Below, one piece after another: positions 36,674-56,002 of a stretch of DNA of 64,000 bases; within the stretch, counting starts at the first letter, position 1, and every line of letters begins with the position of its first letter. Below the pieces are notes generated by a model that worked only from the letters and a program-made list of their open reading frames with translations, had not been told where the DNA came from and did no database searches. The translations under genes and the position numbers were made by a program. The stretch lies in contig NZ_JAJGNO010000014.1 of NCBI RefSeq assembly GCF_020782235.1, forward strand, positions 1 through 64,000, given 5' to 3'. The stretch comes from Sphingobium naphthae (GTDB taxonomy: Bacteria; Pseudomonadota; Alphaproteobacteria; Sphingomonadales; Sphingomonadaceae).

Positions 36674-36873
36674 TTTCTCGCCTTTGCATCCTCTTTCCGG
36701 TCAGGGCGATAGCATGATTTTTATACCTATTGAAAGAGTGAAGAGAAGGCGAGTTGCAGCGCGCCTGATTGAAAACATGCCGCGCCTCTTTGGTAAGCCG
36801 TGCGGTCGCGTTGACTAATGTCCCGCCGCGGCGCTTCACCATGAACGGCAAATATCAAAGCGGGAGAGTCCCT

Positions 36874-37860
36874 GTGTCCAAGGTTCATCTGAAAATCGCC
36901 GTCGCGGAACATCCGCACACATCCGCCATTCGCGACGGGTCGATCCCGATCGAAGGCGTCGACGCCGAAATCGTGACGGTCAAGCCGCAGATCGGGGCAT
37001 TCCGCCGGATGGTTCGCGACCTGGAATTCGACGTCTGCGAGATCGCGCCGACGACCTACATCATCGCCCGCGCCTATGGAAAGAAGTTCAAGGCGCTCCC
37101 CATCTTCGTGGTGCGCCGCTTCCACCATGCAGGCCTGCTGGTGCGTCCGGACGCGGGCATCACCAGCCCGAAGGATCTGGAAGGCAAGAAGGCGGGCGTG
37201 CGCGCCTATTCGGTCACCACGGGGGTGTGGACGCGGCAAGTGCTGATCGACGAATATGGCGTCGACAACAGCAAGATAAACTGGTTCGTCGATGACGAGG
37301 AACATGTTCAGGAACTGAAGCTCCCCGCCAATGTGAGCCATGTTGCGGCCGGCGACAGCCTGGCCGACATGATGGCGCGCGGCGACATCGTCGCGGGGTT
37401 CGACGCCGCGGCCGGCATCGGCCGCACCGGCGCGCCGACCGGCGGCTGGCAGGAGGTCGAGGCCAATTATCCCGACCTCTTCCCCAATGCCGAGGAACTG
37501 GAAGCGGACTATTATGCCCGCACCAAGGTCTATCCGATGCACGGCACCATCGTCGTCAAGGACAGCGTGCTGGAAGAGCATCCCTGGGTCGCGCGCTCCA
37601 TTTACGACGCCTTCACCAAGGCCAAGGACGCGTGGGTCGCCAAGCTGAACAGCGGAGAAGCGACGGGGGCCGGCGCCGACAAATATCGCAAGCTTCAGAA
37701 AATCGTGGGGGCAGACCCGCTGCCCTATGGCATCGAGGCCAATCGCGCGACGATCGAGGCGCTGGAGAAGACCGCGTTCGATCAGGGGCTGACCCCGCGT
37801 CGCATGAGCATGGACGAACTGTTCGTCGACCCCGAGCAGGGGCCCGCGCTCACCGCCTGA
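36874..37860 (+). CDS. 4,5-dihydroxyphthalate decarboxylase (Pht5)-like protein, copy 1
   Basis: 328 residues, close to the ~330 of Pht5, with the periplasmic-binding-protein (NMT1/ABC substrate-binding) fold but no signal peptide. Recognisable parts are the start HLKIAVAEHPHTSAIRDGSIPIEGVD, IAPTTYIIARAYGKKFKALPIFVVRRFHH and GKKAGVRAYSVTTGVW. Pht5 decarboxylates 4,5-dihydroxyphthalate to protocatechuate; relatives may act on other aromatic acids or just bind them. I use the GTG at 36874, with GGGAGAG five bases upstream; the 35 codons before it have no homology. First gene of the catabolic operon. Confidence 0.75.
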   Translation: MSKVHLKIAVAEHPHTSAIRDGSIPIEGVDAEIVTVKPQIGAFRRMVRDLEFDVCEIAPTTYIIARAYGKKFKALPIFVVRRFHHAGLLVRPDAGITSPKDLEGKKAGVRAYSVTTGVWTRQVLIDEYGVDNSKINWFVDDEEHVQELKLPANVSHVAAGDSLADMMARGDIVAGFDAAAGIGRTGAPTGGWQEVEANYPDLFPNAEELEADYYARTKVYPMHGTIVVKDSVLEEHPWVARSIYDAFTKAKDAWVAKLNSGEATGAGADKYRKLQKIVGADPLPYGIEANRATIEALEKTAFDQGLTPRRMSMDELFVDPEQGPALTA

Positions 37861-37948
37861 TCCCTTTGCGGGTGCGGCCATCCGCACCCCTTGGCGGCCA
37901 CAGCGCCGCGCCAAGCCACCACGCCGCACCAGGCGGACGGAGAGTTCA

Positions 37949-38974
37949 ATGATTATCGATTGCCATGGTCACTTCACGACGGTCCCCCAGTCTTTCCGCG
38001 AATGGCGGAGCAAGCAGGTCGCCGCTGCCGACGATCCGGCCAATGCGCCCAAAATGGCGGACTGCATCGTCACCGACGACGACATTCGCGAAGGTGTGGG
38101 GAACGGGCAGCTCAAGCTGCAGCAGGAACGCGGCAGCGACCTGACGCTGTTTTCCCCCATTGCCGGCCTGATGAGTCATCATCTGGGCAATGAGCGCACC
38201 AGCCTGGAATGGGCGACGATCAGCAACGACCTGGTCCGCCGGGTGTGCGACATCTATCCTGACAATTTCGTGCCGGTGGGCATGTTGCCCCAGTCGCCGC
38301 TGGCGCCGCCAAAAAATTCGATCCCCGAGCTCAAGCGGATCGTCAACGAACTCGGTTTCGTCGGGGTCAATGTGAACCCCGACCCGACCGGCGGCTACTG
38401 GACCGGCAAGCCCTTCACCGACAAGGAATGGTATCCTCTGTTCGAGGCGCTGTGCGAGCTGGACGTTCCCGCGATGGTCCATGTCGCGGCAAGCTGCAAT
38501 CCCAACTTCCATGGCACCGGCGCCCATTATCTCAATGCCGACACGTCGGTGTTCATGCAGATCCTCCAGTCCGACCTGTTCAAGGACTTCCCGACCCTGC
38601 GCCTCATTATCCCGCACGGCGGCGGCGCGGTGCCCTATCACTGGGGCCGCTATCGCGGCATGAGCCTGGAGATCGCTGGCCGGCCGCTCGAAGGGCTGCT
38701 CGACAACATCTTCTTCGACACCTGCGTCTATCACCATCCGGGCGTCGAACTGCTGACCAAGGTGGTGCCGACCAGCAACGTCCTGTTCGGGTCGGAGATG
38801 ATCGGCGCGGTGCGCGGTCGGGATCCCGACACGGGCGAATATTTCGACGACACCAAACGCTATGTCGACGCCTGCGAGGCGCTGTCCGAAGCCGATCGCC
38901 ACGCGATCTTCGAAGGCAATGCCCGCCGGGTCTATCCGCGCCTCGACGCGCACCTCAAGGCGAAGGGTCTGTAA
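37949..38974 (+). CDS. ligJ: 4-oxalomesaconate hydratase (LigJ type)
   Basis: 341 residues, the length of LigJ of Sphingobium SYK-6. Amidohydrolase-superfamily barrel: metal motif DCHGH at the N-terminus, MVHVAASCNPNF in the middle, IIPHGGGAVPYHWGR and FFDTCVYHHPGVELL, and FGSEMIGAVRG at strand 8. LigJ hydrates 4-oxalomesaconate to 4-carboxy-4-hydroxy-2-oxoadipate in protocatechuate 4,5-cleavage and gallate pathways. GGAGAG lies before the ATG. It is followed after three bases by the second amidohydrolase. Recognition is by family pattern, so a related substrate cannot be excluded. Confidence 0.85.
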   Translation: MIIDCHGHFTTVPQSFREWRSKQVAAADDPANAPKMADCIVTDDDIREGVGNGQLKLQQERGSDLTLFSPIAGLMSHHLGNERTSLEWATISNDLVRRVCDIYPDNFVPVGMLPQSPLAPPKNSIPELKRIVNELGFVGVNVNPDPTGGYWTGKPFTDKEWYPLFEALCELDVPAMVHVAASCNPNFHGTGAHYLNADTSVFMQILQSDLFKDFPTLRLIIPHGGGAVPYHWGRYRGMSLEIAGRPLEGLLDNIFFDTCVYHHPGVELLTKVVPTSNVLFGSEMIGAVRGRDPDTGEYFDDTKRYVDACEALSEADRHAIFEGNARRVYPRLDAHLKAKGL

Positions 38975-38977
38975 GCC

Positions 38978-39826
38978 ATGACCGTGATCGACATTCATCC
39001 GCATATCATTTCGGACGATGCGGACCGCTATCCCCCCGCTCCGCTGTTCGGCAAGCGGTCCGACTGGTCGCAGGAGCGGCCGTGCACCGTCGCATCGCTG
39101 ATCGCGGCGATGGACGAAGCCGGCGTCGACAAGGCCGCGGTCGTCCATTCGTCCACCACCTACGGCTTCGACAACAGCTATGTGGTCGATGGCTGCAACG
39201 AATATCCCGACCGGCTGATCGCGGTCGGGTCAGTCGACGTCGCTGCCAGCGACGCAGTTCCAGTGATCCGGGGCTGGGTGGATAAGGGCCTCAAGGGCCT
39301 GCGCATCTTCACCGGGGGGTCGACCAAGGATTTCGACCCAACCGAGCTGGAAAACCCGGCCGCCTATCCCGCCTGGGAGGTGCTGGGCGACCTGGGCATC
39401 CCGATGTGCATCCAGACCGGACCCATCGGCCTGCCGCAGGTGCGCGATCTCGCCGTCCGCTTCCCGAAGGTCAACATCATCCTCGACCATCTGGGTCGTC
39501 CCGATGTCCTCGACGGCCCGCCCTACGCCAACGCCGACAGCCTGTTCGCCATGGCGGACCTGCCCAACATCTATTTGAAACTGACGCCCCGCATCATGGG
39601 CGACGTGACCAAGGGGCAGGCGAGCGCCGACACCTTCTTCACCAAGGTCGCTGCCGTCTTCGGCGCCAACCGCATGGCATGGGGGTCCAACTTCCCCACA
39701 TCGCCCGGCACGCTTTCGGACATTCTGGCGACGGCGCGAGACCGGCTCGCCTGCCTCAGCGATGAGGATCAGAACTGGGTCTTCGCCAAGACCGCACAGA
39801 CGCTTTACCCGGCGCTGAAAGACTGA
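38978..39826 (+). CDS. amidohydrolase family protein, LigI/lactonase-like (COG3618)
   Basis: 282 residues with a TIM-barrel metal-dependent hydrolase pattern: HPHI at the N-terminus, GLKGLRIF, IQTGPIGL, IILDHLGRPD and WGSNFPTSP. LigI, which opens 2-pyrone-4,6-dicarboxylate (PDC) to 4-oxalomesaconate, belongs to this group; its strand-8 motif is WGTDWP, whereas here an Asn stands where LigI has Asp, as in several other members. Directly between ligJ and an MFS gene. A PDC- or lactone-hydrolysing role is inferred from context only. Confidence 0.8.
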   Translation: MTVIDIHPHIISDDADRYPPAPLFGKRSDWSQERPCTVASLIAAMDEAGVDKAAVVHSSTTYGFDNSYVVDGCNEYPDRLIAVGSVDVAASDAVPVIRGWVDKGLKGLRIFTGGSTKDFDPTELENPAAYPAWEVLGDLGIPMCIQTGPIGLPQVRDLAVRFPKVNIILDHLGRPDVLDGPPYANADSLFAMADLPNIYLKLTPRIMGDVTKGQASADTFFTKVAAVFGANRMAWGSNFPTSPGTLSDILATARDRLACLSDEDQNWVFAKTAQTLYPALKD

Positions 39827-39850
39827 CGAAAATACATAAGGAGAGGGTTC

Positions 39851-41140
39851 ATGGCCACATCACCGATACCGAAGGAAGCGCCGGCTTCGGCCGCGCGCCT
39901 GCCAGAACTTTCTCCCGCCGCGCGCTGGCTGGTGCTGTTCCTGCTGGCGACCGGCGTGCTGATCGCCTTCGTCGATCGCACCAGCATTTCCTCCGCCCTG
40001 GCCGATCCGCCGTTCATCGCGCATTTCGGCCTGTCCGATGTGGATCGGGGCTGGCTGAACTCTGCCTTTTTCTGGTCCTATGGGCTGGTGCAGATTCCCA
40101 TGGGCTGGCTGGTCGACCGCTATGGCGTGAAAGTGCCCTACACGATCTGCTTCGTCCTGTGGTGTCTGGCGACGGCCGCGATCGGCCTGGTCGACGCCTT
40201 TGCCGCGCTGCTGACCATGCGTCTGCTCATCGGCGCGGCCGAAGCGATCGTGATGCCCGCCAGCTATCGTTGGATCCGCAATAATTTCACCGAGCGGCAA
40301 AATGGCACCGCCGTCGGCCTGTTCGCGATGGGCAACAAGCTGGGCCCCGCGATCGGCGCGCCGGTCGCTGCCTGGCTGATCGTCAATTATGACTGGCGCA
40401 TGATGTTCATCCTGACGGGCGTCGCCGGCTTCATCTGGCTGGTGCCCTGGATGCTGACCGTTCAGAATGACTGGCCCACCCCCGAGGAACGCGCCACCGC
40501 CAAGCGCAAGGCCGCATCCGTCACCTTTTCCAGCATCCTCAAGAGCCCGCTGGTCTGGGGAGCGATGATCGTGAATTTCTGCTACGGCTATTTCACCTTC
40601 TACTGCATGACCTGGATGCCGGCCTATCTGGTCGAGGAGCGCGGCCTGTCGCTCAAGCAGTCGGGTCTCTACACCTTCTTCAGCTTCGCCGGCATCGCCA
40701 TCGTCGCGGTGGTCGCGGGCTGGGTCGCGGACAAGCTGATCGAGCGCGGCGGCGATCCCGTGTTCGTGCGCAAGGCCTTTGTCATCGCCGGCTTCATCGG
40801 CGCGTGCACCGTGCTGCTGGGCGCCTATTCGCCGAGCCTGTCGATGGCCTTGTTCTGGAACGTCTTTTCCCTTTCGTTCCTGGGCCTCGCCACCGCGAAC
40901 AACCTGGCGCTGTGCCGCCTGACCTTGATCCCCAAGCCAGCCATCGGGCTGGTGACGGGCGTGCAGCAGGTCGCGACGTCCCTGGCCGGGGGCGTGGCGG
41001 CAAGCCTGTCGGGCTGGCTGCTGCATGTCAGCGGCGGCTATGACCTGCCAATGCTGGTGATCTTCGTCTTCCTGATCATCGGCGCAGCCGCGACATGGAT
41101 CCTGCTGCGTCCGCAATGGGCGCCCAGAATTTCGGAATAA
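39851..41140 (+). CDS. MFS transporter, ACS (aromatic/organic acid:H+ symporter) type
   Basis: 429 residues, twelve membrane helices, with the family motifs FWSYGLVQIPMGWLVDRYGVK (helix 2-3 loop) and MPASYRWIRNNFTERQNGTAVG. This family imports aromatic acids, hexuronates or phthalate. SD sequence AGGAGAGGG precedes the ATG. Part of the catabolic operon, so it likely imports the pathway substrate through the inner membrane. It shares a 69-base identical segment with the truncated transporter at 48255. Confidence 0.9.
   Translation: MATSPIPKEAPASAARLPELSPAARWLVLFLLATGVLIAFVDRTSISSALADPPFIAHFGLSDVDRGWLNSAFFWSYGLVQIPMGWLVDRYGVKVPYTICFVLWCLATAAIGLVDAFAALLTMRLLIGAAEAIVMPASYRWIRNNFTERQNGTAVGLFAMGNKLGPAIGAPVAAWLIVNYDWRMMFILTGVAGFIWLVPWMLTVQNDWPTPEERATAKRKAASVTFSSILKSPLVWGAMIVNFCYGYFTFYCMTWMPAYLVEERGLSLKQSGLYTFFSFAGIAIVAVVAGWVADKLIERGGDPVFVRKAFVIAGFIGACTVLLGAYSPSLSMALFWNVFSLSFLGLATANNLALCRLTLIPKPAIGLVTGVQQVATSLAGGVAASLSGWLLHVSGGYDLPMLVIFVFLIIGAAATWILLRPQWAPRISE
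40564..40632 (+). repeat. 69-base segment identical to 48959-49027
   Basis: An exact 69-base match between the two MFS genes, covering the segment that encodes MIVNFCYGYFTFYCM and the following residues. The surrounding parts of the two genes are clearly more diverged, with frequent third-position changes, so the perfect block stands out. Confidence 0.9.
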
Positions 41141-41220
41141 GCAATCGCACGGAGCGGGCTTTGGATTGGCCGCTTCCCATCAGGGCGCATAATGTGCCCG
41201 CCGGACAAACAGAGGATATT

Positions 41221-42219
41221 ATGGCGAAGATCGTATTCGGGATGGCGGTGCCGCATAGCGGCATGCTGGGACAAAAGCCGGAGGACTGGCTGAACAATGG
41301 CGACCGGGATCGCAACAATCCCGAGCTCTGGTTCCAGAACCGGACCTGGACCTATCCCGAACTGGAGGCGCATCGCGGCGCGGCGTTCGAGCCTTATCTG
41401 ACGATCGAGGAGCGCACCGCCCGCGCCGGGCGCTGCCGGGCGGCGCTTGACGCGATGGCGGAAGCCTACAAGGCGGCCAAGGTGGACGTCGCCATCATCC
41501 TGGGCAAGGATCAGAAGGAAATCTGGCCCGACCAGTCCCCCTCGATCACCATCTACACCGGGCAGGACGTGCATAATGGCCCGCCGCAACGCGCCGTATA
41601 CGCCCCCGACCATCATGTCGTGCATCAGGCCTATCCGGATCTGGCCACCTACCTCATCAAGACCTTCCAGAAGGAAGGGTTCGACCTCAATGACCTGATG
41701 GCGTGGCCCGAAAATGTCTGGATGGAGAAGAATCAGGGGCGGAAAGCCGATTATCCGGTCGTGCCGCACGCCTACAGCTTCGTCTATCACCAGATCATGG
41801 GCGATGACGTGCCGCCGCATGTGCCGGTGCTCTTCAACCTCTTCTATCCCCCGACCCAGCCATCGATGCAGCGCTGCATCCAGTTCGGCCGCGTGCTACG
41901 GGAAGCGATCGAGGCATGGCCCGAGGATGTGCGGGTCGCGGTGATCGCCAGCGGCGGCCTGTCGCACTTCGTCAATGACGAGGAGTTCGACCGGGACGTG
42001 ATGGAGAAGCTGGCCGCCTATGACTATGAGGGCCTGGCGGCGATCCCGGACGGCTATTACCAGTCGGGCACGTCGGAAGTGAAGATCTACTCGATCGTCA
42101 TGATGGCGCTTGAGCATACCGGCGCGCAGATGACCCTGGTGGACTATGTCCCCTGCTGGCGCACCGCCGCCGGCACCGGCGAGGGCATGGGCTTCATGTA
42201 CTGGAACGCGCCGGAATAA
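41221..42219 (+). CDS. class III extradiol dioxygenase, LigB superfamily
   Basis: 332 residues. The N-terminal VFGMAVPHSGMLG carries the first expected iron-ligand His, and VIASGGLSHFVN the catalytic His near residue 240. In LigB the second iron ligand is the His of YNDH; the aligned stretch here reads IILGKDQKEIW, with Gln in that place. A C-terminal AGTGEG may correspond to the glutamate-ligand region. The length and the long insert after the first motif fit the single-polypeptide branch that includes 3-O-methylgallate dioxygenase (DesZ). It probably cleaves a catechol- or gallate-type ring, the product going to the LigI/LigJ-type genes. Confidence 0.78.
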   Translation: MAKIVFGMAVPHSGMLGQKPEDWLNNGDRDRNNPELWFQNRTWTYPELEAHRGAAFEPYLTIEERTARAGRCRAALDAMAEAYKAAKVDVAIILGKDQKEIWPDQSPSITIYTGQDVHNGPPQRAVYAPDHHVVHQAYPDLATYLIKTFQKEGFDLNDLMAWPENVWMEKNQGRKADYPVVPHAYSFVYHQIMGDDVPPHVPVLFNLFYPPTQPSMQRCIQFGRVLREAIEAWPEDVRVAVIASGGLSHFVNDEEFDRDVMEKLAAYDYEGLAAIPDGYYQSGTSEVKIYSIVMMALEHTGAQMTLVDYVPCWRTAAGTGEGMGFMYWNAPE

Positions 42220-42258
42220 GCGGCGCTTCCCTTTTCCCATTCACATAGGACGACCATC

Positions 42259-43116
42259 ATGACCGATACGCGCCTTAACGGCGTCATCCGCGCCTTCGAA
42301 GCCGGCAAGCCCGCCTTCACCTGCTTCTCCAAGGTCGACAAGCTGACCGCGCAGGAACTGACCGACGCGCCCTATGACGGCATCGTCTTCGAAATGGAGC
42401 ATAACCCCTATGACGTCGGCGGCCTCGGCGACGCGCTTCAATACATGCTCAACCGCAAGAAGATCGCCGAAAGCGGCGCCGTCGCGCCTTCGGTGACGCC
42501 GCTGGCGCGCATTCCTGCCAACGGTGCGGAGATGAACCAGTTCCAGGCCAAACAGGTGCTGGATCGCGGCGTCTATGGCGTCATCACGCCGCATGTTTCG
42601 ACCGTCGAGCAGGCCTATAACATGGTCGCGTCGTGCCGCTACGCCAAGCCGACCGGCGCTGCCCTCTACGAGCCCAAGGGCGTGCGCGGCGATGGACCGG
42701 CGACGGCAGCGCGCTACTGGGGGGTCAGCCAGGCGGACTATTATGCCAAGGCCGATGTCTGGCCGCTCGCCCCGCATGGCGAGATCCTGGTAGGCATGAT
42801 GTGCGAAAGCCCCGAGGCGATCGAAAATCTGGACGACATCCTGGCCAATGTGCCGGGCATCGGCCTGGTGCTGATCGGCGAGGGCGACCTCAGCCAGGCG
42901 CTGGGCTATCCGCGCCAATATGACCACCCGGAAGTGGTTGGCGCGATGAACCGCATCGTGGAGGTCTGCAAGAAGCACAATGTCGTCGTGGGCAACCCGC
43001 ACACCAATGCGAAGAATGTCGAGCGGCTGATCGGCGAGGGCTATCGCTTCCTCATGTCAGCGCCCACCCGCAGCTATGGCGTCGTGGGCCAGGGCCGCGA
43101 ACTGGCGGGATATTGA
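42259..43116 (+). CDS. HpcH/HpaI family class II aldolase
   Basis: 285 residues with the PF03328 pattern: FEMEHNPYD (the Glu-His near the metal site), VTPLARIPANGAEMNQ, QVLDRGVYGVITPHVST with the basic residue, MCESPEAIENLDDIL with metal-ligand Glu and IGEGDLSQALG with Asp. These enzymes split 4-hydroxy-2-oxo acids to pyruvate and an aldehyde or oxo acid. In SYK-6 the ligJ product is cleaved by LigK, an RraA-like enzyme of a different family; this aldolase may replace it. The next gene starts four bases after its stop. Confidence 0.87.
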   Translation: MTDTRLNGVIRAFEAGKPAFTCFSKVDKLTAQELTDAPYDGIVFEMEHNPYDVGGLGDALQYMLNRKKIAESGAVAPSVTPLARIPANGAEMNQFQAKQVLDRGVYGVITPHVSTVEQAYNMVASCRYAKPTGAALYEPKGVRGDGPATAARYWGVSQADYYAKADVWPLAPHGEILVGMMCESPEAIENLDDILANVPGIGLVLIGEGDLSQALGYPRQYDHPEVVGAMNRIVEVCKKHNVVVGNPHTNAKNVERLIGEGYRFLMSAPTRSYGVVGQGRELAGY

Positions 43117-43120
43117 CGCC

Positions 43121-44665
43121 ATGAACGGTGCGGAAAGCCTGGTCTCCACCCTGGTCGACCAAGGTGTCGATATCTGTTTCGCCAATCCCGGAACGTCGGA
43201 AATGCATTTCCTGGCGGCGCTCGACAATCCCAGGATGCGGAGCGTCCTGTGCCTGTTCGAGGGCATAGCGACGGGCGCAGCCGATGGATGGTACCGGATG
43301 AAGGACAGGCCCGCTTCCACCCTGCTCCATCTGGGGCCAGGGCTGGCGAATGGCCTCTCCAACATCCACAATGCCAAGCGCGCCTCGTCGGGCATGGTCA
43401 ACATCATCGGCGAACATTCGGTGGCGCATCTGCGTTATGACCCGCCGCTGCAGTCGGACATCGAAGGGCTGGCCCGCCCTTTGAGCCACTGGGTCCGGCG
43501 TGCCGACAGCGCGTCGACCATCGCCTGGGACGCGGCACAGGCGGTCGCGACGGCATCGGAGCATCCCGGCAAGATCGCAACCCTGATCCTGCCCGGAGAT
43601 ACCAGCTGGCAGCAGGCCGACAGGGCCGTCACTTTGCCCAAGATCGACCAGCGCCGTCCCGCACCCGCGCCCGCACGGATCGATCATGTCGCCAAGGTGC
43701 TGACGTCAGGCGAGCCCACGCTGATCATCCTGGGCAACAAGGCGACGCGCGGCCGCGCGCTGGAGCTGGCGGGCAAGGTCGCAGCAGCCACCGGTGCGCG
43801 CCTGGGATCGCAATTCTTCACGGCGCGGATCGAGCGCGGCGCGGGACGAACGCCGATCGAGCGCATTCCCTATGCCGTGCCGCAGGCGATGGCGTTCCTG
43901 GACGGCTTCAAGCATATCATCACGGTCGAAACACGCGAACCGGTCGCCTTCTTCGCCTATCCCGACAAGCCGAGCCTGATGAAGAAGGAAGGCACGCTCG
44001 TCCACCCTCTGGTGGAGGAGCATGAGGATAGCGCAGCGGCGTTCGAGATGCTGCTTGACGCGCTCGGCGCGAGCGCCGTCCAGCCGATCGTGCAGGCCAG
44101 GATCGAAACGCCCTCTCCCACCGGCGCGCTCACCCCCCTCAGCATCGCGCATGCGCTGGCCGTCGCCCTGCCCGAAAACGCCATTCTGGTCGATGAATCG
44201 CTGACCACGGGGCGGGAATCCATGGGCCATACGATGGGCGCGCTGCCGCACGACCTCATCAACAATATGGGCGGCTCGATCGGCTATGGCACGCCGGTCG
44301 CTACCGGCGCGGCGCTGGCCTGCCCGGACCGGCGCGTCTTCTGCACCGTGGGTGATGGCAGCGCCATGTACACGATCCAGTCGCTCTGGACCCAGGCGCG
44401 CGAGGGGCTGAACATCACCACCATCATCTACGCCAATCGCAGCTATGCGATCCTGAAGGCCGAATATGCCAATATGGGCGCGGGCAGTCCGGGGCCGCAG
44501 GCGATGGCGATGATCGACATCGACCGGCCGACGATCGACTGGATCGCCATGGCCAAAAGCATGGGGGTGCCGGCAGTGGCGGTCGAAACGGCGGAGGATT
44601 TCGTCAAGGCGATGCAGAACAGCGCGCGCGAGCCTGGTCCGGCGCTCATCGAAGTCAGACTGTAG
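43121..44665 (+). CDS. ThDP-dependent enzyme, acetolactate-synthase-like
   Basis: 514 residues in the usual three-domain layout. The catalytic glutamate is in LFEGIATGAADGWYRM (residue ~48), and the ThDP-binding motif is VGDGSAMYTIQ with the downstream NRSYAILK near residue 430-455. By length and motifs it belongs to the group with IlvB-like, benzoylformate decarboxylase-like and sulfopyruvate decarboxylase-like enzymes. It should decarboxylate or ligate a 2-oxo acid from the pathway. Start ATG 43121 is four bases after the aldolase stop, and the earlier in-frame start would overlap that gene. Confidence 0.85.
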   Translation: MNGAESLVSTLVDQGVDICFANPGTSEMHFLAALDNPRMRSVLCLFEGIATGAADGWYRMKDRPASTLLHLGPGLANGLSNIHNAKRASSGMVNIIGEHSVAHLRYDPPLQSDIEGLARPLSHWVRRADSASTIAWDAAQAVATASEHPGKIATLILPGDTSWQQADRAVTLPKIDQRRPAPAPARIDHVAKVLTSGEPTLIILGNKATRGRALELAGKVAAATGARLGSQFFTARIERGAGRTPIERIPYAVPQAMAFLDGFKHIITVETREPVAFFAYPDKPSLMKKEGTLVHPLVEEHEDSAAAFEMLLDALGASAVQPIVQARIETPSPTGALTPLSIAHALAVALPENAILVDESLTTGRESMGHTMGALPHDLINNMGGSIGYGTPVATGAALACPDRRVFCTVGDGSAMYTIQSLWTQAREGLNITTIIYANRSYAILKAEYANMGAGSPGPQAMAMIDIDRPTIDWIAMAKSMGVPAVAVETAEDFVKAMQNSAREPGPALIEVRL

Positions 44666-44689
44666 GACACAGAATAAGGGGTAGAGGAT

Positions 44690-45586
44690 ATGGCGACGAG
44701 CGCCGAAGACATACTGACATTGCGCACCAACCTGGCCGAATATCCGGTGACGAAGGCAATCCGCGACGGGCGGGTCACTTCCGACATCGTCAAGCTGGAC
44801 TGTTGCGGGCCCGAGCCGGCGCAAAACGGGTTCAAGGACATGGTCCGCCGGAACATGTATGATGCGGGCGAACTGGCGATCGTCACCTATTTGCAGGCCA
44901 AATGCTACGGCAAGCCATATGTGCTGCTGCCCGCGCCCGTTTCGGGCCGGTTCCAGCATCATTGCGCAGGCTACAACCGCGAGCTCGGCCATCTCGATCC
45001 CAAGGACATCGAAGGTCGCCAGGTGGGCGTACGCACCTATGCGCAGACGACGGGCCTGTGGGTGCGCGGCATCCTGCAACATGAATATGGCGTCGATCTC
45101 GACAAGGTCACCTGGATGACCGTGGGGGAAGGCCATTTGGAGGAATATAGCGATCCCGCCAATTGCATCCGGCTGCCCAAGGGCTCCGATATCGGGCAGA
45201 TGATGCTGGACGGGGAACTGGCTGCCACGCTCCAAGGCGTCGACCTGCCCAAGGACCCGCGCGTCGAACGATTGATCCCCGACCCCTTCGATGCCGCCAA
45301 GGACTGGTTCGCGCGCGAGGGCGTGGTGCCGATCAACCATATCTTCGTCGTGCACGAGGACATATCGAAGAACCGTCCCGATGTGGTGCGCGAAATCTAC
45401 CGCATGATCGGCGAGAGCCGTGCGTTGACGCAAGGCGGCGTGCCCGATCCGTTCCCGCCCATGGGGCTGGAAGCCAATCGCAAGGGGCTGCAGCTCGCGA
45501 TCGACTGGGCTTTCGAGCAGAATATCATCCCGCGCAAGCTAAGCGTCGATGAGCTGTTCGACGACGTTACGGGAACTCTCGGATAA
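44690..45586 (+). CDS. Pht5-like (4,5-dihydroxyphthalate decarboxylase family) protein, copy 2
   Basis: 298 residues, related to the protein at 36874 but clearly diverged and about 30 residues shorter. Shared blocks: LAEYPVTKAIRDGRV at the start, GRQVGVRTYAQTTGLWVRGIL, and the C-terminal ANRKGLQLAIDWAFEQNIIPRKLSVDELF, which parallels ANRATIEALEKTAFDQGLTPRRMSMDELF of copy 1. No signal peptide. The SD GGGGTAGAGG precedes the ATG. It is the last gene before a strong terminator, so the catabolic operon begins and ends with members of this family. Confidence 0.75.
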   Translation: MATSAEDILTLRTNLAEYPVTKAIRDGRVTSDIVKLDCCGPEPAQNGFKDMVRRNMYDAGELAIVTYLQAKCYGKPYVLLPAPVSGRFQHHCAGYNRELGHLDPKDIEGRQVGVRTYAQTTGLWVRGILQHEYGVDLDKVTWMTVGEGHLEEYSDPANCIRLPKGSDIGQMMLDGELAATLQGVDLPKDPRVERLIPDPFDAAKDWFAREGVVPINHIFVVHEDISKNRPDVVREIYRMIGESRALTQGGVPDPFPPMGLEANRKGLQLAIDWAFEQNIIPRKLSVDELFDDVTGTLG

Positions 45587-45599
45587 CATAGGCGAAACG

Positions 45600-45636: not shown

Positions 45637-45726
45637 ATAAGCGCGGACCCAGCTTCTCTTCTACCTAGCGTGCACAATCCGATAACAATGGGTTGAATAA
45701 TCAGCGCACCATGGGGAGGACACATC

Positions 45727-48027
45727 ATGCGCCGCTGCAACTTTTCAATACCCGCCCTGCTCGGCGGGATTTCTATCGCCGCGCTTGCCGCTTCGCCCGC
45801 CTTCGCCCAGCCCGTGGAGCCGCCCGCGGCCGCCCAGGAAGGCGTTTCCGACATCATCGTCACCGCCCAGAAGCGCAGCGAAAATGCGCAGAATGTCGCG
45901 GTTGCGATCACCGCGCTCAGCACGGAAGATATCGCCGCATCCGGCGTGACCAGCACGGAGGATTTGCGGGCAGCCGTGCCTTCGCTCAACGTCACGACGG
46001 CAGCAGGCGGCTTTGGCCTGCCGCGCATTCGCGGCGTCGGCGCCACCGGCCAGGGCGCCGGGATCGAGAACCCGGTCGCGGTCTATGTCGACGGCGTCTA
46101 TTACGGCTCCGCCATCGGGGCGCTGCAGTCGCTGTTCGATGTCGAGCAGGTCGCGGTTCTGAAAGGGCCGCAGGGCACGCTCTTTGGCCGTAACGCGACC
46201 GGCGGTCTCATCCAGATCACCACGCGCAAGCCCAGCTATGACTATACTGCCTCCGCCCGCTTCGGCTACGGCAATTATGATACGGCGAGCGCCGCCGCCT
46301 ATGTTTCGGGCGGCCTGGCCCCTACCCTCGCCTTCAGCCTGTCGGGTCAGTATGAGAATCGCGGCGACGGCTATGGCCAGAATGTCTTCACGGGCAACGA
46401 CATCCAGACCGATCGCACCTATTCGCTGCGCGCCAAATTGCTCTGGGAGCCGGGCGACACCACCTCCATCGTCCTGTCCGGCGACTATTTCGGCCGGGAA
46501 GCGGCCGATCCGGCGTTCGTCACCTTCAGCCGCAACAGCGCCGGCCAATATGTGCCCGACGTCATAAAGTCTCTGGGCGGCGACCCGCAGCGCGACATCT
46601 ATGCCGATTTCGATCCCACGTTGCGCGGCCGGCAGAAGGGCGTCAGCCTATCGATCGACCAGGAATTGGGCGGCGTGAACCTGCGGAGCATCACCGCCTA
46701 CCGCAAGACCGAGTTGCGCACCTATTTCGATCCCGACGGGACGGTGGCGCCGCGCCTGCGCATCGACAACAATAATCGCGACAAGCAGTTCACGCAGGAG
46801 ATCGACCTGATTTCCGACAATGCCGGGCCATTCAACTGGGTTATCGGCGGCTTTTACATGAAGAGCAGCGCTGGCCAATATCCTGGTCGCACCACCGGCC
46901 TGACGACCTTCGGCGACAACGGCTATTCGGACGACTATACCGACATCGGTCTTGAATCGATTGCCGGCTTTGCCGACGGCACCTACGAACTGGGCGAAAA
47001 CACCAAGATCACGGCTGGCATTCGCTACACCTATGACAAGCGCGATATCGATGCGACCCGCATCACCTATAACGGCAACACGGACGTCACCACCACAACC
47101 ACCTACGGCCCTGAGAAGCGCAGCTTCGACAAGCTGACGTGGCGCTTGTCGATCGACCATCGCTTTTCGCCCGAGTTGATGGCCTATGCGAGCTACAATC
47201 GCGGCTTCCGCAGCGGGACGTTCGTGCCGCAGATCGCGACGCCCTTCAACGTGCTGGAACCCGAGGTCGTCGATGCCTATGAACTGGGTATCAAGACCGA
47301 TCTGTTCGATCGCAAGGTGCGGCTGAACGTCGCGGGCTATTATTACGACCAGTCGGCGGTGCAGGTGATCCAGGTCATCGCGGGCGTGAACAACGTCTAC
47401 AACGCCCGGCAGGGTGCGCGCATCTACGGCATCGATGCCGACATGACCTGGCAGGTAAGCGACAATCTGCGCCTCTTCGGCGGCTTCAACTGGACCGACG
47501 CGCGCTACAGGGATTTCACCGACGCGATCATTTCCATCCCCTATCCTGTCGCGGCCGGTTTTTCGCCGTCCGACTATAGTTATGTCGACAGCCAGACCGG
47601 ACAGACGGTCGCGAATACCGCCTGTTTGGGTACATTCGGCGCTCCGACGGCGCAGCTGGGCGGCAATTGCCTGCTGCGCGGCGATGCGTCGGGCAATCGG
47701 CTGCAGAATACGCCCGAAATCACCTTCAGCCTTGGCGGCAGCCTGGACATCCCGACCAGCGCGGGCATCTTCACCCTGGCGGGCAATTATTACTATAATG
47801 ATGGCTTCGTCGCGACCGCGGACGAACGCGTCACGCAGCCAAGCTACAACACGGTCGACGCGTCGATCACCTGGAAGGAGCCCGGCGAGAAATTCTATGT
47901 TCGCTTGTGGGGCAAGAATTTGACCGACGCCTTCTATCGCAGCCAGATCAGCGCCACCAACAGCGGTGACAATGGCTATGCAGGCGCGCCCCGCACCTAT
48001 GGCGTGACGTTCGGCTTCGACTACTGA
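45727..48027 (+). CDS. TonB-dependent receptor, probable aromatic-compound uptake
   Basis: 766 residues with a signal peptide (cleavage after AFAQ). TonB box DIIVTAQKR, plug with LPRIRGVGATGQGAG, VYVDGVYYG, DVEQVAVLKGPQGTLFGRNATGGLIQITTRKP, and a long barrel ending YGVTFGFDY. This is the large receptor subtype common in sphingomonads, several of which take up lignin-derived aromatics (family knowledge). It stands between two strong terminators, so it is its own transcription unit. Placement behind the catabolic operon suggests it brings the substrate across the outer membrane. Confidence 0.92.
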   Translation: MRRCNFSIPALLGGISIAALAASPAFAQPVEPPAAAQEGVSDIIVTAQKRSENAQNVAVAITALSTEDIAASGVTSTEDLRAAVPSLNVTTAAGGFGLPRIRGVGATGQGAGIENPVAVYVDGVYYGSAIGALQSLFDVEQVAVLKGPQGTLFGRNATGGLIQITTRKPSYDYTASARFGYGNYDTASAAAYVSGGLAPTLAFSLSGQYENRGDGYGQNVFTGNDIQTDRTYSLRAKLLWEPGDTTSIVLSGDYFGREAADPAFVTFSRNSAGQYVPDVIKSLGGDPQRDIYADFDPTLRGRQKGVSLSIDQELGGVNLRSITAYRKTELRTYFDPDGTVAPRLRIDNNNRDKQFTQEIDLISDNAGPFNWVIGGFYMKSSAGQYPGRTTGLTTFGDNGYSDDYTDIGLESIAGFADGTYELGENTKITAGIRYTYDKRDIDATRITYNGNTDVTTTTTYGPEKRSFDKLTWRLSIDHRFSPELMAYASYNRGFRSGTFVPQIATPFNVLEPEVVDAYELGIKTDLFDRKVRLNVAGYYYDQSAVQVIQVIAGVNNVYNARQGARIYGIDADMTWQVSDNLRLFGGFNWTDARYRDFTDAIISIPYPVAAGFSPSDYSYVDSQTGQTVANTACLGTFGAPTAQLGGNCLLRGDASGNRLQNTPEITFSLGGSLDIPTSAGIFTLAGNYYYNDGFVATADERVTQPSYNTVDASITWKEPGEKFYVRLWGKNLTDAFYRSQISATNSGDNGYAGAPRTYGVTFGFDY

Positions 48028-48056
48028 CCCGGCGGCGTGTGACGCCCCTTTTCGCG

Positions 48057-48091
48057 AAACGCCCGCCATCGCCCATGATGGCGGGCGTTTT
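48057..48091 (+). terminator. rho-independent terminator after the TonB receptor gene
   Basis: AAACGCCCGCCATC (48057-48070) pairs with GATGGCGGGCGTTT (48077-48090), a 14-bp perfect stem with a six-base loop, followed by T. Located 30 bases after the receptor stop codon. Confidence 0.9.
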
Positions 48092-48254
48092 GCCGTTCCA
48101 GCGCCGGCAAATCTATCGTCGCAGGCGCAACTTCAATTGTTCAGTGCCGAACGATCGCCCGACCAAAGGCAAAGAACAGGCGATTACCAGCGTCATCATC
48201 AGCGGCAGCGGTCAAGCAAATGCCGACCAGCAGATCGCATTCAGGAGAGCAACC

Positions 48255-49127
48255 ATGACCCAACCCTCATCTGCGCAGATCGGCTCACCGGAACAACGAT
48301 CGCCTAGCGCAGCCGCAGTCTGGGGCATCATGCTGCTTCTGAGCTTGGGCGTGCTGATCGCCTATGCCGATCGCGCCAGCATATCCGCGGCGATCGCCAA
48401 CCAGCAGTTCATCGATCATTTCGGCATGTCCGATGTCGAGCGCGGTATCGTGGGTTCGGCATTTTTCTGGTCCTATGCGCTGGCGCAGATTCCGATGGGG
48501 TGGGTGGTCGACCGCTATGGCGTAAAGTTGCCCTATGCGCTGTGCTTTGCACTATGGTGCTGCGCCACGGCGGGTGCCGGGATCATGACCGCCTTCAGCG
48601 GATTGGTGATCATGCGGCTCATCGTCGGCGCTACAGAGGCGGTGGTGATGCCCGCCAGCTATCGCTGGATCCGCCACAATGTCCCGGAGCGCCACACCGG
48701 CGCTGCGATCGGCCTGTTTGCGATGGGAAACAAGATCGGGACGGCCCTGGGCGCGCCGCTGGCTGCTTGGCTGATCATTCTTTACGACTGGCGCGCCATG
48801 TTCGTGATCACCGGCTTGCTGGGCCTGGTCCGGCTGGCGCCATGGACATTGTGCGTGCGCAACGACTTTCCCAAAAAGGCGGACATGGCGGCGGTGATGC
48901 GGCGGGCAGCCACGGTGCCGTTCCGCAACATCATCACGTCCCCTGTCGTATGGGGCGGGATGATCGTGAATTTCTGCTACGGCTATTTCACCTTCTACTG
49001 CATGACCTGGATGCCGGCCTATCTGGTGGAGAGCAGGGGGCTGTCGCTCACGCAATCGGGCCTCTATACCTTCTTCAGCTTCGCGGGCATCGCCGTCGTC
49101 GCCATCATTTCCGGTTACCAGCTATGA
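48255..49127 (+). pseudogene. truncated MFS transporter (ACS type), C-terminal third lost
   Basis: 290 codons from the ATG at 48255 (AGGAGAG upstream) match the transporter at 39851 nearly end to end up to FSFAGIAVVAIISG, then break into YQL and a stop. The full-length paralogue has 429 residues, so about the last 115 residues, four or five helices, are missing. Homology ends abruptly at about 49110 and the following 150 bases show no transporter sequence. The product is unlikely to transport. It probably arose by a deletion or a rearrangement that joined foreign DNA at this point. Confidence 0.85.
48959..49027 (+). repeat. 69-base segment identical to 40564-40632
   Basis: Second copy of the exact 69-base block shared by the two MFS genes, about 85 bases before the point where the truncated gene loses homology. 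Confidence 0.9.
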
Positions 49128-49287
49128 AGCGACCGCGACCACAGCGAAGAAAGGTTGTGCCGAACAGGGCTATCTGACCGGTGTCCGAGACATGATGTCC
49201 GAAATAGCGGAATAGCAGCCGCATCCATTGTGGAAAAAGGAGGCCTTGGATCGCTCCCGGCCTCCTCTTTCCCTTCATGCCCCCGCT

Positions 49288-51156
49288 TTAGCTGGGATCG
49301 CTGAGATACAGCGGCATGGAATCTTCCCATTTGCTGTCGGTCAGCAGCCGCTTGTTCGAGCCGTCGGCGTTCATCACGTAGATTTGGCCATATTGCTGGA
49401 AGGTCTGATCGTAGAGCGCGGCCTCGTCACGGAAGCCGTGCTGCGATCCGCTCCACATGATCCGGCCGTCAGGCGACCAGACGGCATGGCCGTCGCTGGA
49501 CGGATGGGTGGTTGCGCGGAACAGGCCGCTGCCATCAGGCTTGATCGTGTAGATATCGAAATTGCCGTCGTCGCGCTTGCGCGTGAAGACGATCCGCTTG
49601 CCATCGGGCGACCAGCCGGGAAGATTGTCCAGGCCCTGCGTCAGAACGCGGATCTTGCGCGTGTCGAGATTGAGGATGCGCAGCCCCTTTTCCGTCTCGC
49701 CCCAGACGCGGAACACCAGTTCCTTGCCATCGGCCGAATAGCTGGGGAAACCCGAATGGAGGCTGCCGTCGGTGAGTTGTTCGGCGCCGGTGCCGTCGCG
49801 GCGGACGCGCCAGAGCGCGGCCGTCATCTTGCTGCGTTCGTTGAACCAGTAGCCGAGGCCGAAGGCGATCCATTCGCCATCGGGCGACCAGCAGGGCTGG
49901 AAGGCCCCGGCCAGACCCATTTGCACCTTTTTTTCGTCCAGCCCCCGGCCGGAGGATTCGAAGACTTTTCGCTTTTCGGAGCCGTCCGGCCGCATGATCC
50001 AGACCGAGCTATTGCCCAGCTGCTTTTCGGTAAAGACGACCCAGCCGTCGCGCGACAGCAGCGGGAAGACGTCGACATGCTGATAGTCATAGTCCGTGTC
50101 CCAGCTGAAAAGCGGCTTGTAGAGCGGGCGCACGGGTTTGAAAGCGACCTTTTCATAGATCACCGACTTGCCATCCGGGGTCCAGTTGGGCGCGCGGATG
50201 AAAGCCTGGCGAAGCGCCGGGCGATCGGAGGTATAGGCCAGCCCTTCATTAGGGCCATATTTGACAAGATAGCCAATCTCGCTGTTGCTGAGAAATTGCG
50301 GATGCAGCTTGAGATCGACACCCGTCGTGTGTTCGACCCGATCGCCGCCGTTCACATCGACGGAGACAATCTGCGAGGGAGCCTTGCCGACATAGTTGGG
50401 ACGACGCGCACCCCACGTCGCTTCGACCGTCATTTCATAGAAGACGATTCGCTTGCCATCCGGCGACCATTTGGGCGAGCCGAGACAATAGCCCGGCTTG
50501 GAGGCCACTTTGCGGAATCCGGTTCCGTCAGGGCGGATAACGTAGATGGACAATTCCTGCGTATGTTCCCAGCCATGTCCCTTGTCATGTCCGGTCCAGC
50601 GCGTGTTGCGATCACTGGAAAAGGCGAGCCATTGTCCATCAGGCGACCAGGCCGGGCGGAAATAGCAGTCCGGATAGAGGTCTTCGCCATGAATGTCGCC
50701 AATGCCGGTCAACTGGAGGGTTCGACCGGTGAACAGATCCTGCAGCCAGATGTTGGCGCGATAGCCGTTCCGGGTGGACACAAAGGCGAGCGTCCGGCCG
50801 TCGGGCGACAGCACAGCGGCGTCATCCATGCTGTCGGTCGTGATGACAGGCGCAATACCCGTGCCGTCGGCCCGTGCGCGGAAGATATCGGACTGGCCGT
50901 CCCCGCGACGTTCGGACGTAAAGATCAGCCACTGTCCGTCGGGCGACAGAGTGCCATTATATTCGTAATCCGTGTCGACGAGCAGCTTGCGTTCATTGCT
51001 GCCGTCCAGATTGGCCATCATCAGTTGAGAGATGGAAGGCGCGATGCGGTTCATCAGCATCACACCCTTTCGCCCCAACGGCACATCCGTTGCACGCGCA
51101 GCGCCGGCGGCCAGCGCCCCCAAGGACAGTCCCATGAAATTTCTACGGTTCATCAC
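49288..51156 (-). CDS. TolB-like WD40/beta-propeller protein, Tat-exported
   Basis: 622 residues with a twin-arginine-type leader (NRRNFMGLSLGALAAGAARA) and a propeller made of many TolB/PD40 repeats of the form WSPDGKRIVF, LSPDGQWLIF and WSPDGEWIAF, each followed by I-x-T/V-I-x-x-DGSG. No peptidase domain (no Ser-Asp-His triad of S9 enzymes) follows the propeller. Probably a periplasmic binding or scaffold protein. It lies 57 bases downstream of the second ThDP enzyme and may share its promoter. Its link to the catabolic genes is unknown. Confidence 0.8.
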   Translation of the reverse strand: MMNRRNFMGLSLGALAAGAARATDVPLGRKGVMLMNRIAPSISQLMMANLDGSNERKLLVDTDYEYNGTLSPDGQWLIFTSERRGDGQSDIFRARADGTGIAPVITTDSMDDAAVLSPDGRTLAFVSTRNGYRANIWLQDLFTGRTLQLTGIGDIHGEDLYPDCYFRPAWSPDGQWLAFSSDRNTRWTGHDKGHGWEHTQELSIYVIRPDGTGFRKVASKPGYCLGSPKWSPDGKRIVFYEMTVEATWGARRPNYVGKAPSQIVSVDVNGGDRVEHTTGVDLKLHPQFLSNSEIGYLVKYGPNEGLAYTSDRPALRQAFIRAPNWTPDGKSVIYEKVAFKPVRPLYKPLFSWDTDYDYQHVDVFPLLSRDGWVVFTEKQLGNSSVWIMRPDGSEKRKVFESSGRGLDEKKVQMGLAGAFQPCWSPDGEWIAFGLGYWFNERSKMTAALWRVRRDGTGAEQLTDGSLHSGFPSYSADGKELVFRVWGETEKGLRILNLDTRKIRVLTQGLDNLPGWSPDGKRIVFTRKRDDGNFDIYTIKPDGSGLFRATTHPSSDGHAVWSPDGRIMWSGSQHGFRDEAALYDQTFQQYGQIYVMNADGSNKRLLTDSKWEDSMPLYLSDPS

Positions 51157-51213
51157 CCTACTCCGATAATATGCTCTGTTGATCGGGACCGCTTCTGCTG
51201 GCGATCGCCCTCG

Positions 51214-52956
51214 TTATCCCATCCATTTGCTCACCGGCACCGCCGACTCTTCCAGCGGCTGGGCGATGACGTCGATCAGCGTGGGACCATCATGAGCGAT
51301 CGCCTTGCGCATGATGGAGTCAAGCGCTTCAGGATCATCGACGGTCCAGGCCTTCACGCCATACGCCTCCGCTATGCGTGCATGGTCGGTGCGCGTGAAA
51401 TCGACCGAGAAATACCGCCCGCCATAGCCCTCCTTCTGACTTGCCTTTATCCATCCGAAGGACGCATTGGAAAAAACGATCATGGTGATGGGCAAACCCT
51501 GGCGCACGATCGTTTCCAGCTCACCCACCGCAAAGCCGAAACTGCCATCGCCCATCACCGCCACCACCTTGCGCTCGGGCGCGCCGAACTGCGCACCGAC
51601 CGATGCTGGCAATGCAAATCCCAGGGCGCCATGAGCGCGATTGGTGATGAAGCGGCGCCCGCTCCCATTGAACTGAAAATAACCTGAAAAATAGGGGCAC
51701 GGCGTGCCGGGATCCGCAACGATGATGGCATCGGAAGGCAGAGCCGCCTGCAGCGCGGCCAGAACGCGCTCCGGGCGAATGGGCCTCTCGCTGGATCGAG
51801 CCAGGCGATCGAAAGCGGCACGCTTTTGGGCCCTCAGGGATGCGACCCGCTCCGCGGCGCCATTGTGGCGTCGTGCACCCGCAAGGCGCTTCTCTATCTC
51901 GATCCGCAGCGCCGACAGGCACAGCAGCGCGTCGCCGACGACGCCAGCCTCCACGCGATAATTGCCTGAGACAACCATGGGATCAATGTCGATGTGGACG
52001 ATCGGCGTGGTGCGGGATGGCACGCTTCCATGCTCCGTCGTCGTGGAGCCCGCGCGGCAACCGACGAAGATCACGCAGTCCGCCGCCGCAATGACCGCGC
52101 GTGTTTCGTCCGTACCGCCGTTGGCGCCGACCACGCCGACCGCCAAGGGATGATCGTCAGCTATGGCGCCATGACCGCTCACCGTCGAAGCGACCGGTGC
52201 GTCGAGCAGTTCAGCCAATTCCGCGAGCAGGTTGCAGGCGCCCGCAAGGATGACGCCCCCGCCACAGATAAAGGCCGGTCGCTTGGCGGCGAGGATGACA
52301 TCGGCTGCGGCAGCAATCAGTTCGCTGTCCGGGCCCGTGCGATAAGCGGGGAAGGTCGTATGGCGCGGATCCGCCCAGATGTCGGCTGTCGAAAGATGCT
52401 GCTTTTGCAGATCATAGGGCAAGCCGATATGCGCGGCGCCCGGCCGCCCCGTCGTCGCCGCGCGGAAAGCGGTGCGGAAGATGTGCGGGATCTGGCTGAC
52501 ATGGTCGACCACGCTATTCCACTTGGTCAGCGGCGCGAACAAGGCGCGCTGGTCGAGTTCGGTCAAGGGATAGCGACCCCGTGCCGTTACCGAGATGTCG
52601 GAGGTGATGGATAGCAAGGCGACGGAGGATTCATTGGCTTCGATGACGCCCGGCAGGATGTAGGTCGCCCCTCCCCCGCTTGGTCCTTCGCAGACCCCTA
52701 CCCTACCCGTGACGCGCGCATAGGCATCCGCCATATAGGCCGCGCTGCGCTCGTCGCGCGTGAGAACATGGTCGATGCCATGATCCAACCGCGCCAGCGC
52801 GTCGTAGAATGGCAGGCTGGTGTCGCCGCATAGGCCGAATATATGGCGCACGCCATGCGCCTGCAGCATCCGAACGACCGCCTTTGCGCCCGTAAGGTCC
52901 GCAGACTGGCCATCGGGGAAAGCCAGTGCATCCGAGGGGAGATCGTCAGGGATCAT
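51214..52956 (-). CDS. ThDP-dependent enzyme, acetolactate-synthase large-subunit-like
   Basis: 580 residues with N-terminal pyrimidine-binding domain (HIFGLCGDTSLPFYDAL, catalytic Glu in LTRDERSAAYMADAYAR), central Rossmann domain (RPAFICGGGVILAG, VGCRAGSTTTEHG) and C-terminal PP domain (VMGDGSFGFAVGELET with NASFGWIK). It differs from the ThDP enzyme at 43121 throughout, so they are not recent duplicates. No regulatory subunit gene is present, and it is probably catabolic (glyoxylate carboligase- or 2-oxo acid decarboxylase-like) rather than for branched amino acids. I start at ATG 52956 (MIPDDLPS). Confidence 0.88.
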   Translation of the reverse strand: MIPDDLPSDALAFPDGQSADLTGAKAVVRMLQAHGVRHIFGLCGDTSLPFYDALARLDHGIDHVLTRDERSAAYMADAYARVTGRVGVCEGPSGGGATYILPGVIEANESSVALLSITSDISVTARGRYPLTELDQRALFAPLTKWNSVVDHVSQIPHIFRTAFRAATTGRPGAAHIGLPYDLQKQHLSTADIWADPRHTTFPAYRTGPDSELIAAAADVILAAKRPAFICGGGVILAGACNLLAELAELLDAPVASTVSGHGAIADDHPLAVGVVGANGGTDETRAVIAAADCVIFVGCRAGSTTTEHGSVPSRTTPIVHIDIDPMVVSGNYRVEAGVVGDALLCLSALRIEIEKRLAGARRHNGAAERVASLRAQKRAAFDRLARSSERPIRPERVLAALQAALPSDAIIVADPGTPCPYFSGYFQFNGSGRRFITNRAHGALGFALPASVGAQFGAPERKVVAVMGDGSFGFAVGELETIVRQGLPITMIVFSNASFGWIKASQKEGYGGRYFSVDFTRTDHARIAEAYGVKAWTVDDPEALDSIMRKAIAHDGPTLIDVIAQPLEESAVPVSKWMG

Positions 52957-53105
52957 GCAGACAGCATTAAGGATCAAAAGCCCGGCTCCCTTATCGAAAA
53001 GCGAGCAAAGGCGATTGATGGGGCAGTTTGAACGTCTGGCCGGCCCAACCCGGAACAAGAGACTACACTTGCTGAAGGTGCTTTATCGTTGACTATTTCA
53101 TGCTA

Positions 53106-55991: not shown

Positions 55992-56002
55992 CCCATCCCC
56001 GC

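Follow-up and report, generated by a model that had tools for sequence, protein, structure and literature searches.

A conserved bacterial operon bounded by two Pht5-family genes: a candidate route for the breakdown of carboxylated ring compounds

An eight-gene operon of Sphingobium naphthae, encoded on the plus strand between 36.87 and 45.59 kb of a 64,000-nucleotide stretch of DNA (positions 1-64000 of the 78,490-base contig NZ_JAJGNO010000014.1; hereafter the window), raises the question of which compound it might serve to degrade. It runs from a start near 36874 to 45586, begins and ends with genes of the 4,5-dihydroxyphthalate decarboxylase (Pht5) family (here Pht5a and Pht5b), and between them codes for relatives of LigJ, LigI and LigB, an HpaI-type aldolase, a thiamine diphosphate (ThDP) enzyme and a major facilitator superfamily (MFS) transporter. 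An earlier note, made from the DNA letters alone, had taken this set for an undescribed aromatic-acid cluster working through ring cleavage and 4-oxalomesaconate (OMA). The families assigned by searches of Pfam, NCBIfam and the Protein Data Bank (PDB) bear out the gene identities and order given there. The operon is real, with intergenic gaps of 3-88 bp (the ThDP start being set at 43121), and the view of it as a coherent catabolic unit flanked by two Pht5-family genes holds. In the literature, searched largely below full-text level, we found neither a description of this operon nor a characterized pathway with this combination, as that note had supposed. The gene set, which recurs in many bacteria, resembles a pathway, so far undescribed, by which a carboxylated ring compound would be consumed, and a ring-cleaving oxygenase seems to be an optional addition to it.

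A conserved core and a separable ring-cleavage gene

Using an alignment of Pht5b as the one query in one scan of genome contigs, we kept 80 of 93 relatives, located in 79 loci. Together with nine loci from a plasmid collection, which may overlap with them in species, these made up 88 loci that were compared by tblastn (L026 was dropped as a duplicate record of L017). The 79 named loci span Alpha-, Beta- and Gammaproteobacteria, and the cluster occurs in Sphingomonadaceae, Caulobacter, Nitrospirillum, many Burkholderiales and Pseudomonas. Homologues were present for Pht5b in 87 of the 88 loci, HpaI in 83, the LigI-type protein in 80, LigJ in 79, Pht5a in 77, the MFS transporter in 74, the ThDP enzyme in 69, the LigB-type protein in 57 and a PD40 beta-propeller encoded downstream of the operon in 45; these counts score truncated loci as lacking the gene, and were redone on the 67 loci of at least 20 kb (58 from the contig scan and 9 from plasmids). 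A core of five enzymes, namely the two Pht5-like and the LigJ-, LigI- and HpaI-like proteins, is kept in 64 of these 67, a count that, like that for Pht5b, is to be read with the fact that most loci were found using Pht5b as the query. Since so many loci keep the core, the grouping exceeds chance. Among the 64 core loci 48 have the LigB-type gene, 51 the ThDP gene and 36 both.

The nearest Pht5b genes, 88-90% identical, are those of Sphingobium C100 and AP50. Given that Pht5b was recovered at E <= 1e-80 in just 5 of 296 sampled genomes of the host order (the host's own being counted, and one being a 47% relative), the operon counts as accessory in that order. One divergent sister cluster (L124; Pht5b 47%, HpaI 70% and LigI-type protein 43% identical) keeps both Pht5-like genes and LigJ, and no match to the LigB-type or ThDP enzyme was found within its 19.9 kb.

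The LigB-type gene is separable from the core and tied to the PD40 gene. In the loci of at least 20 kb, 40 of the 49 that have the LigB-type gene also have PD40, versus none of the 18 without it (Fisher p = 5e-10, a test that ignores relatedness). In five loci (L060, L067, L084, L086 and L104) LigB-type, MFS and PD40 genes are located apart from a LigB-less core, L084 having a second Pht5b as well, and a stretch of Burkholderia multivorans (L023) has, of the operon set, only Pht5a, MFS, LigB-type and PD40 genes. A whole-genome search covering 19 of the 31 LigB-less loci (setting aside L018, L022, L024, L105, L062 and seven truncated ones) recovered a LigB-type orthologue elsewhere in the genome in 10 cases and none in 9. 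Ring cleavage by the LigB-type enzyme, which the earlier note had drawn as the starting step, was accordingly rejected as a necessary one. When presence of the gene was mapped on an HpaI tree, with six loci carrying LigB apart from the core marked by hand as positive, it changed 10 times if ten short loci were excluded; by this quick tree its presence appears clustered yet not of one origin.

Altered residues, the candidate pathway and its rivals

The LigJ-type protein matches OMA hydratases at E=4e-136 or better and is 58-59% identical to those of lig operons. It has H6, H8, H178, H223 and E284, residues to which LigJ function is ascribed; for the last of these, an E284Q mutant appears in the title of a PDB entry. 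The 79 cluster proteins and 12 canonical LigJ sequences differ at ten positions that are at least 90% conserved within both sets, and the split is complete at four: N53G, R71I, S73G and S180A. Residue 71 is isoleucine in 79 of 79 cluster proteins versus arginine in all 12 canonical and all 5 distant LigJ-like proteins, which suggests a role for R71 in OMA hydratase; the LigJ of L124 has the isoleucine but retains both serines.

The LigI-type protein matches hydrolases of 2-pyrone-4,6-dicarboxylate (PDC) only weakly by sequence (3.6e-7), and these are the best Foldseek neighbours of its structural model (mean predicted local distance difference test score, pLDDT, 93.5). It carries WGSN where LigI has WGTD. 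All 24 aligned members have this asparagine (N238), and both aligned lig-operon LigIs (L006 and L014) have aspartate at this position. We take this aspartate, Asp248, to be catalytic; PDB titles name D248N and D248A mutants of LigI. The LigB-type protein is a weak match to its family (53.7 bits) and its model (pLDDT 72.8) resembles LigAB and DesB by fold, the best PDB match being 1bou_B of LigAB (E=5.4e-15, probability 1.00, template modelling score 0.59-0.65). Of what we assume to be the two-histidine, one-glutamate iron site H12, H249 and E286 are kept, and in all 11 family members compared Q98 stands in the place of the second histidine ligand. Alignment of the HpaI-type aldolase with 7nnk recovers the metal glutamate/aspartate and the arginine/histidine residues expected of its class. 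All structure matches were made by Foldseek.

These observations bear on the possibility that the operon is an accessory or alternative route for gallate, 3-O-methylgallate or syringate, in which the LigB-type enzyme would cleave a pyrogallol, giving OMA or PDC, and the LigI-type, LigJ and HpaI-type enzymes, the last in place of LigK, would finish. The closeness of the LigJ-type protein to true OMA hydratases, the LigAB- and DesB-like fold and the replaceability in principle of LigK by HpaI all speak for it, but we consider it rather improbable. The two residue swaps run through all the members compared and leave the OMA route drawn in the earlier note unsupported, there is no O-demethylase among the operon genes, and the proposal leaves the two Pht5-like genes and the LigB-less loci unexplained.

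Moreover, the host already has a full protocatechuate set and a gallate dioxygenase. A complete canonical protocatechuate 4,5-cleavage set lies on the same contig at 64.7-73.1 kb (L006:694-9147), 19 kb downstream of the operon and beyond the window edge. This region (contig 64001-78490) codes for a LigI-type protein, OMA tautomerase (546 bits), LigK (423 bits), a regulator of the PcaQ type, a LigJ that shares 59% identity with that of the operon, LigB (543 bits) directly preceded by LigA (contig 70897-71154) and a LigC-like GFO/IDH oxidoreductase. It closely resembles the fld set of Sphingobium TomTYG65 (L014), with LigJ 94% identical. Contig C22 of the host genome codes for a gallate dioxygenase (767 bits) to which a LigA domain is fused. 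Protocatechuate and gallate thus have their own genes in the host, and the argument from missing partners fails: ligA, ligC and ligK, reported absent in the earlier note, are absent from the window alone. Of the full set (LigAB, LigC, LigI, LigU, LigJ and LigK) the operon has a LigJ-type protein and distant LigI and LigB types, and its interpretation as a fragmentary lig operon was rejected, a full one being next door. Gallate, 3-O-methylgallate, syringate, protocatechuate and the phthalates appear less likely as its substrates. Another weak LigB-type gene (43 bits) was seen in the host genome at L005:328-1404 (G000:C22:793-1296).

Both Pht5-type proteins are homologous over most of their length to the 4,5-dihydroxyphthalate decarboxylase 9jp7, their only PDB hit below E=1e-3 (Pht5a, E=7e-42, and E=3.2e-41 over residues 2-317 of 327; Pht5b, E=1.5e-20 over residues 9-244 of 298). 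From the gene content, conservation, family assignments, residue swaps and modularity we infer the substrate and every reaction that follow, the order of steps being suggested by the enzyme families. The operon may serve to import and degrade a ring acid that is carboxylated and rich in oxygen, a proposal we hold at somewhat less than even confidence. The acid would enter via the MFS porter; the Pht5-like proteins would remove one or two carboxyl groups by decarboxylation of the vinylogous beta-keto-acid type; the LigI-like amidohydrolase would open a lactone, for example a 2-pyrone; the LigJ-like hydratase would hydrate the resulting 2-oxo-3-enoate, whose C4 substituent would be other than the carboxylate of OMA; the HpaI-like aldolase would release pyruvate; and the 2-oxo acid that is left would be handled by the ThDP enzyme, joined in some loci by an aldehyde dehydrogenase. 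As an add-on, the LigB-type dioxygenase and its PD40 partner would supply the core from an aromatic diol. Our best reading, which falls just short of an even chance, is that carboxylated pyrones or ring-opened acids undergo hydrolysis, hydration and retro-aldol cleavage, that the Pht5-like proteins decarboxylate, and that ring cleavage optionally feeds the route. It is favoured by the R71I swap, the LigJ and HpaI residues that are kept, the core in the ≥20-kb loci, the LigB-less core of L124, the optionality of the LigB-type gene and the precedent of lumichrome breakdown discussed below; an aromatic acid as the substrate is plausible, though not required by the evidence. In a bolder version, which we regard as doubtful, the core would work without oxygen on carboxylated pyrones or on polycarboxylic acids whose ring is already open. 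LigJ would then be retuned by R71I to a substrate with a C4 non-carboxylate group, the LigI relative would use a different hydrolytic mechanism with asparagine for aspartate, both Pht5-type decarboxylases would act on non-phthalate acids, and ring cleavage would be a bolt-on repeatedly gained or lost.

Several findings weigh against the best reading. The Pht5-like proteins are relatives of the decarboxylase at the family level only, and their fold is also found in proteins with other chemistry. R71 lies in a conserved loop, where its contact with substrate is conjectural, and lactone hydrolysis is not secure because the LigI-like protein is without the aspartate of LigI. No Pht5a was found in the stretch of the Acetobacter oeni locus (L043) that was examined, and a linked member of the aldehyde dehydrogenase family is present in no more than 27 of the 88 loci. 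The nine genomes in which the LigB-type orthologue was not found include three metagenome-assembled genomes (two with one weak LigB/DesB-type member and one with none) besides six isolates, four of which have a different LigB/DesB-type gene with a strong match (206-245 bits) as a possible stand-in; the remaining two, Caballeronia sordidicola and Acetobacter oeni, have only a weaker relative of 281-284 residues. On the tree, LigB presence is clustered (12 changes over all 84 rows versus a shuffled mean of 23), and only 5 changes are forced by the starred branches.

The two Pht5-family genes also suggest a hydroxylated phthalate or benzene polycarboxylate, such as a trihydroxy- or methyl-dihydroxyphthalate of fungal or tannin chemistry, which Pht5a would decarboxylate on the ring before the LigB-type enzyme opened it and the rest followed. 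Such a substrate would fit with the ACS-like porter that the operon encodes, with genes for TTT-type porters in 16 loci and with the reduced set of B. multivorans. On balance we find it unlikely, as the operon has no ring hydroxylase, the core including Pht5a is present in genomes without a detected LigB-type orthologue, and the A. oeni locus shows no Pht5a. Among the matches listed in literature searches for ellagic-acid, tannic and humic links there were only unrelated titles.

The neighbours of L124 are Dak1/Dak2, TAL_FSA, DHDPS and GFO/IDH genes, and could point to sugar-acid catabolism, in which the LigI-type protein would be a sugar lactonase, the HpaI-type enzyme a 2-keto-3-deoxy-acid aldolase and the dehydrogenase of the alpha-ketoglutaric-semialdehyde type. 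The recurrence of that dehydrogenase in 27 of the 88 loci would agree with this. An unlinked 59% copy of it lies beside IlvD/EDD on contig C33 of the host genome, and L043 has an outer-membrane porin-like open reading frame (ORF), OprB-like as read by eye. Yet this is the most improbable of the alternatives: the dehydrogenase aside, the L124 sugar genes barely recur in other loci (one Dak1 match at 43% in L077 and weak IclR matches in four), the LigJ-type protein is too close to the lig-operon OMA hydratases, and Pht5 and LigB are not known as families of sugar enzymes.

Layout of the locus

The features are given in Table 1. The GTG of Pht5a has GGGAG 5' of it, and no signal peptide was seen by eye; the ATG of the LigB-type gene is preceded by AGAGGA, and its homologues begin there too.

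Table 1. The operon and its neighbours in the window
Feature	Coordinates	Strand	Basis or remark
PF10282 seven-bladed propeller "lactonase"	32879..34036	-	Pfam, 336 bits; recurrent accessory
MFS_3 / EntS-like transporter	34178..35425	+	Family searches; recurrent accessory
LysR-type regulator	35435..36673	-	Family searches; divergent from operon
Pht5a, 4,5-dihydroxyphthalate decarboxylase family	36874..37860	+	Likely GTG start 36874; ORF from 36769
LigJ-type hydratase with R71I	37949..38974	+	Sequence match to OMA hydratases
LigI-type (COG3618) amidohydrolase, N238 for LigI catalytic Asp	38978..39826	+	Sequence and fold match
MFS transporter, ACS-like	39851..41140	+	Family searches
LigB-type class III extradiol dioxygenase homologue	41221..42219	+	Start corrected from 41095; optional module
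HpaI-type class II pyruvate aldolase	42259..43116	+	Family searches and alignment
ThDP enzyme, NF005760/PRK07586 family, benzoylformate-decarboxylase-like	43121..44665	+	NF005760, 743 bits; start corrected from 43076
Pht5b, second, shorter Pht5-family protein	44690..45586	+	9jp7 match
TonB-dependent receptor	45727..48027	+	3' of operon
PD40 beta-propeller, Tat-like N-terminus (read by eye)	49288..51156	-	Partner of LigB-type gene
Second ThDP enzyme, acetolactate-synthase-like	51214..53058	-	TTG ORF start, true start uncertain

Homologues of the PF10282 protein (36-58% identity) and of the MFS_3 transporter (40-59%) occur in 30 and 34 of the 88 loci respectively, and a divergent upstream homologue of the regulator (47-89%) in nine others, all Alphaproteobacteria by title. 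The TonB receptor and second ThDP enzyme, which the earlier note had included in the cluster, are indeed present, but recur in only 3 and 2 loci (the latter L032 and L036), and the link of that ThDP gene to the operon is weak. A second MFS gene at 48039-49127, 63% identical to the operon MFS and aligning over residues 2-291 of 429, is probably truncated. The HpaI-type protein is 94-95% identical to those of Novosphingobium L034, L035 and L106, where the remaining operon genes are 73-88% identical, which possibly reflects recombination. RepA, ParB-like and ParA genes at 54690-58280 make it probable that the contig is a plasmid. The window also has a siderophore-like locus (3252-21481) coding for a nonribosomal peptide synthetase module (condensation, AMP-binding, peptidyl carrier and thioesterase domains), a second AMP-binding protein, a periplasmic binding protein and a TonB receptor.

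Relation to known systems and significance

With protocatechuate 4,5-cleavage (lig/fld) the operon shares a LigJ-type hydratase, an aldolase, a LigI-superfamily amidohydrolase and a regulator 35% identical to that of the lig operon. Unlike it, the operon is without LigA, LigC, LigK and LigU, has the altered LigJ and LigI, two Pht5-like genes and a ThDP gene, and stands on one contig with a separate complete lig set. Likewise, a Pht5-family decarboxylase recalls phthalate 4,5-dihydroxylation (pht/oph), but the two Pht5-like genes are divergent, phthalate dioxygenase and dehydrogenase are absent, and the operon has its own ring-opening and lower enzymes.

In Polymorphobacter, Aminobacter, Bradyrhizobium and Rhodococcus, LigB-type relatives of 34-41% identity have LigJ-like and RraA-type genes as neighbours. 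On an Aminobacter plasmid (L020:8818-16213) LigB-type and LigJ-like genes accompany Rieske and FAD oxygenase genes and three RraA-type genes, and clusters of Rhodococcus (L028:11252-19075) and Bradyrhizobium (L027:9154-13065) have LigB-type, LigJ-like, RraA-family and RidA genes. The Aminobacter set may be a flavonoid A-ring cluster of the kind of fde of Herbaspirillum and ifc of Variovorax; it differs from the operon in this low LigB-type identity, in RraA-type rather than HpaI aldolases and in having no Pht5-like match. FdeC and Ifc sequences were outside the comparison with the operon, and for ellagic-acid and flavonoid routes we found no evidence beyond these distant neighbours.

The nearest worked-out chemistry that we found is the lower pathway of lumichrome (riboflavin) catabolism by the lum genes of Nocardioides simplex, where, in the available part of the account, 4-methyl-6-carboxypyrone yields pyruvate and acetoacetate (PMC12746152). 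There too extradiol cleavage, pyrone hydrolysis, hydration and retro-aldol release of pyruvate and a second acid are joined by a ThDP decarboxylase; the LumY hydratase, however, is a cupin-domain protein, the ThDP enzyme has two subunits, and the operon is without the P450, Rieske and xanthine-oxidase genes described there (PMC12746152). The likeness is one of chemistry only, the sequences of LumE, LumW, LumY and LumX having been outside the comparison. By analogy with this pyrone, a neutral C4 group would suit a LigJ without R71.

Annotation may mistake the operon for a fragment of the protocatechuate 4,5-cleavage pathway. In the part available of a table for Paraburkholderia, OMA hydratase is marked in every column shown, and LigC and PDC hydrolase are often missing (PMC8268980). 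P. domus carries the cluster (L101), and we infer that such marks might reflect misread copies of it. That the operon is conserved in several proteobacterial classes suggests that it acts on a common substrate which has yet to be named, and naming it would assign functions to Pht5-like, LigJ-like and PRK07586-family proteins together.

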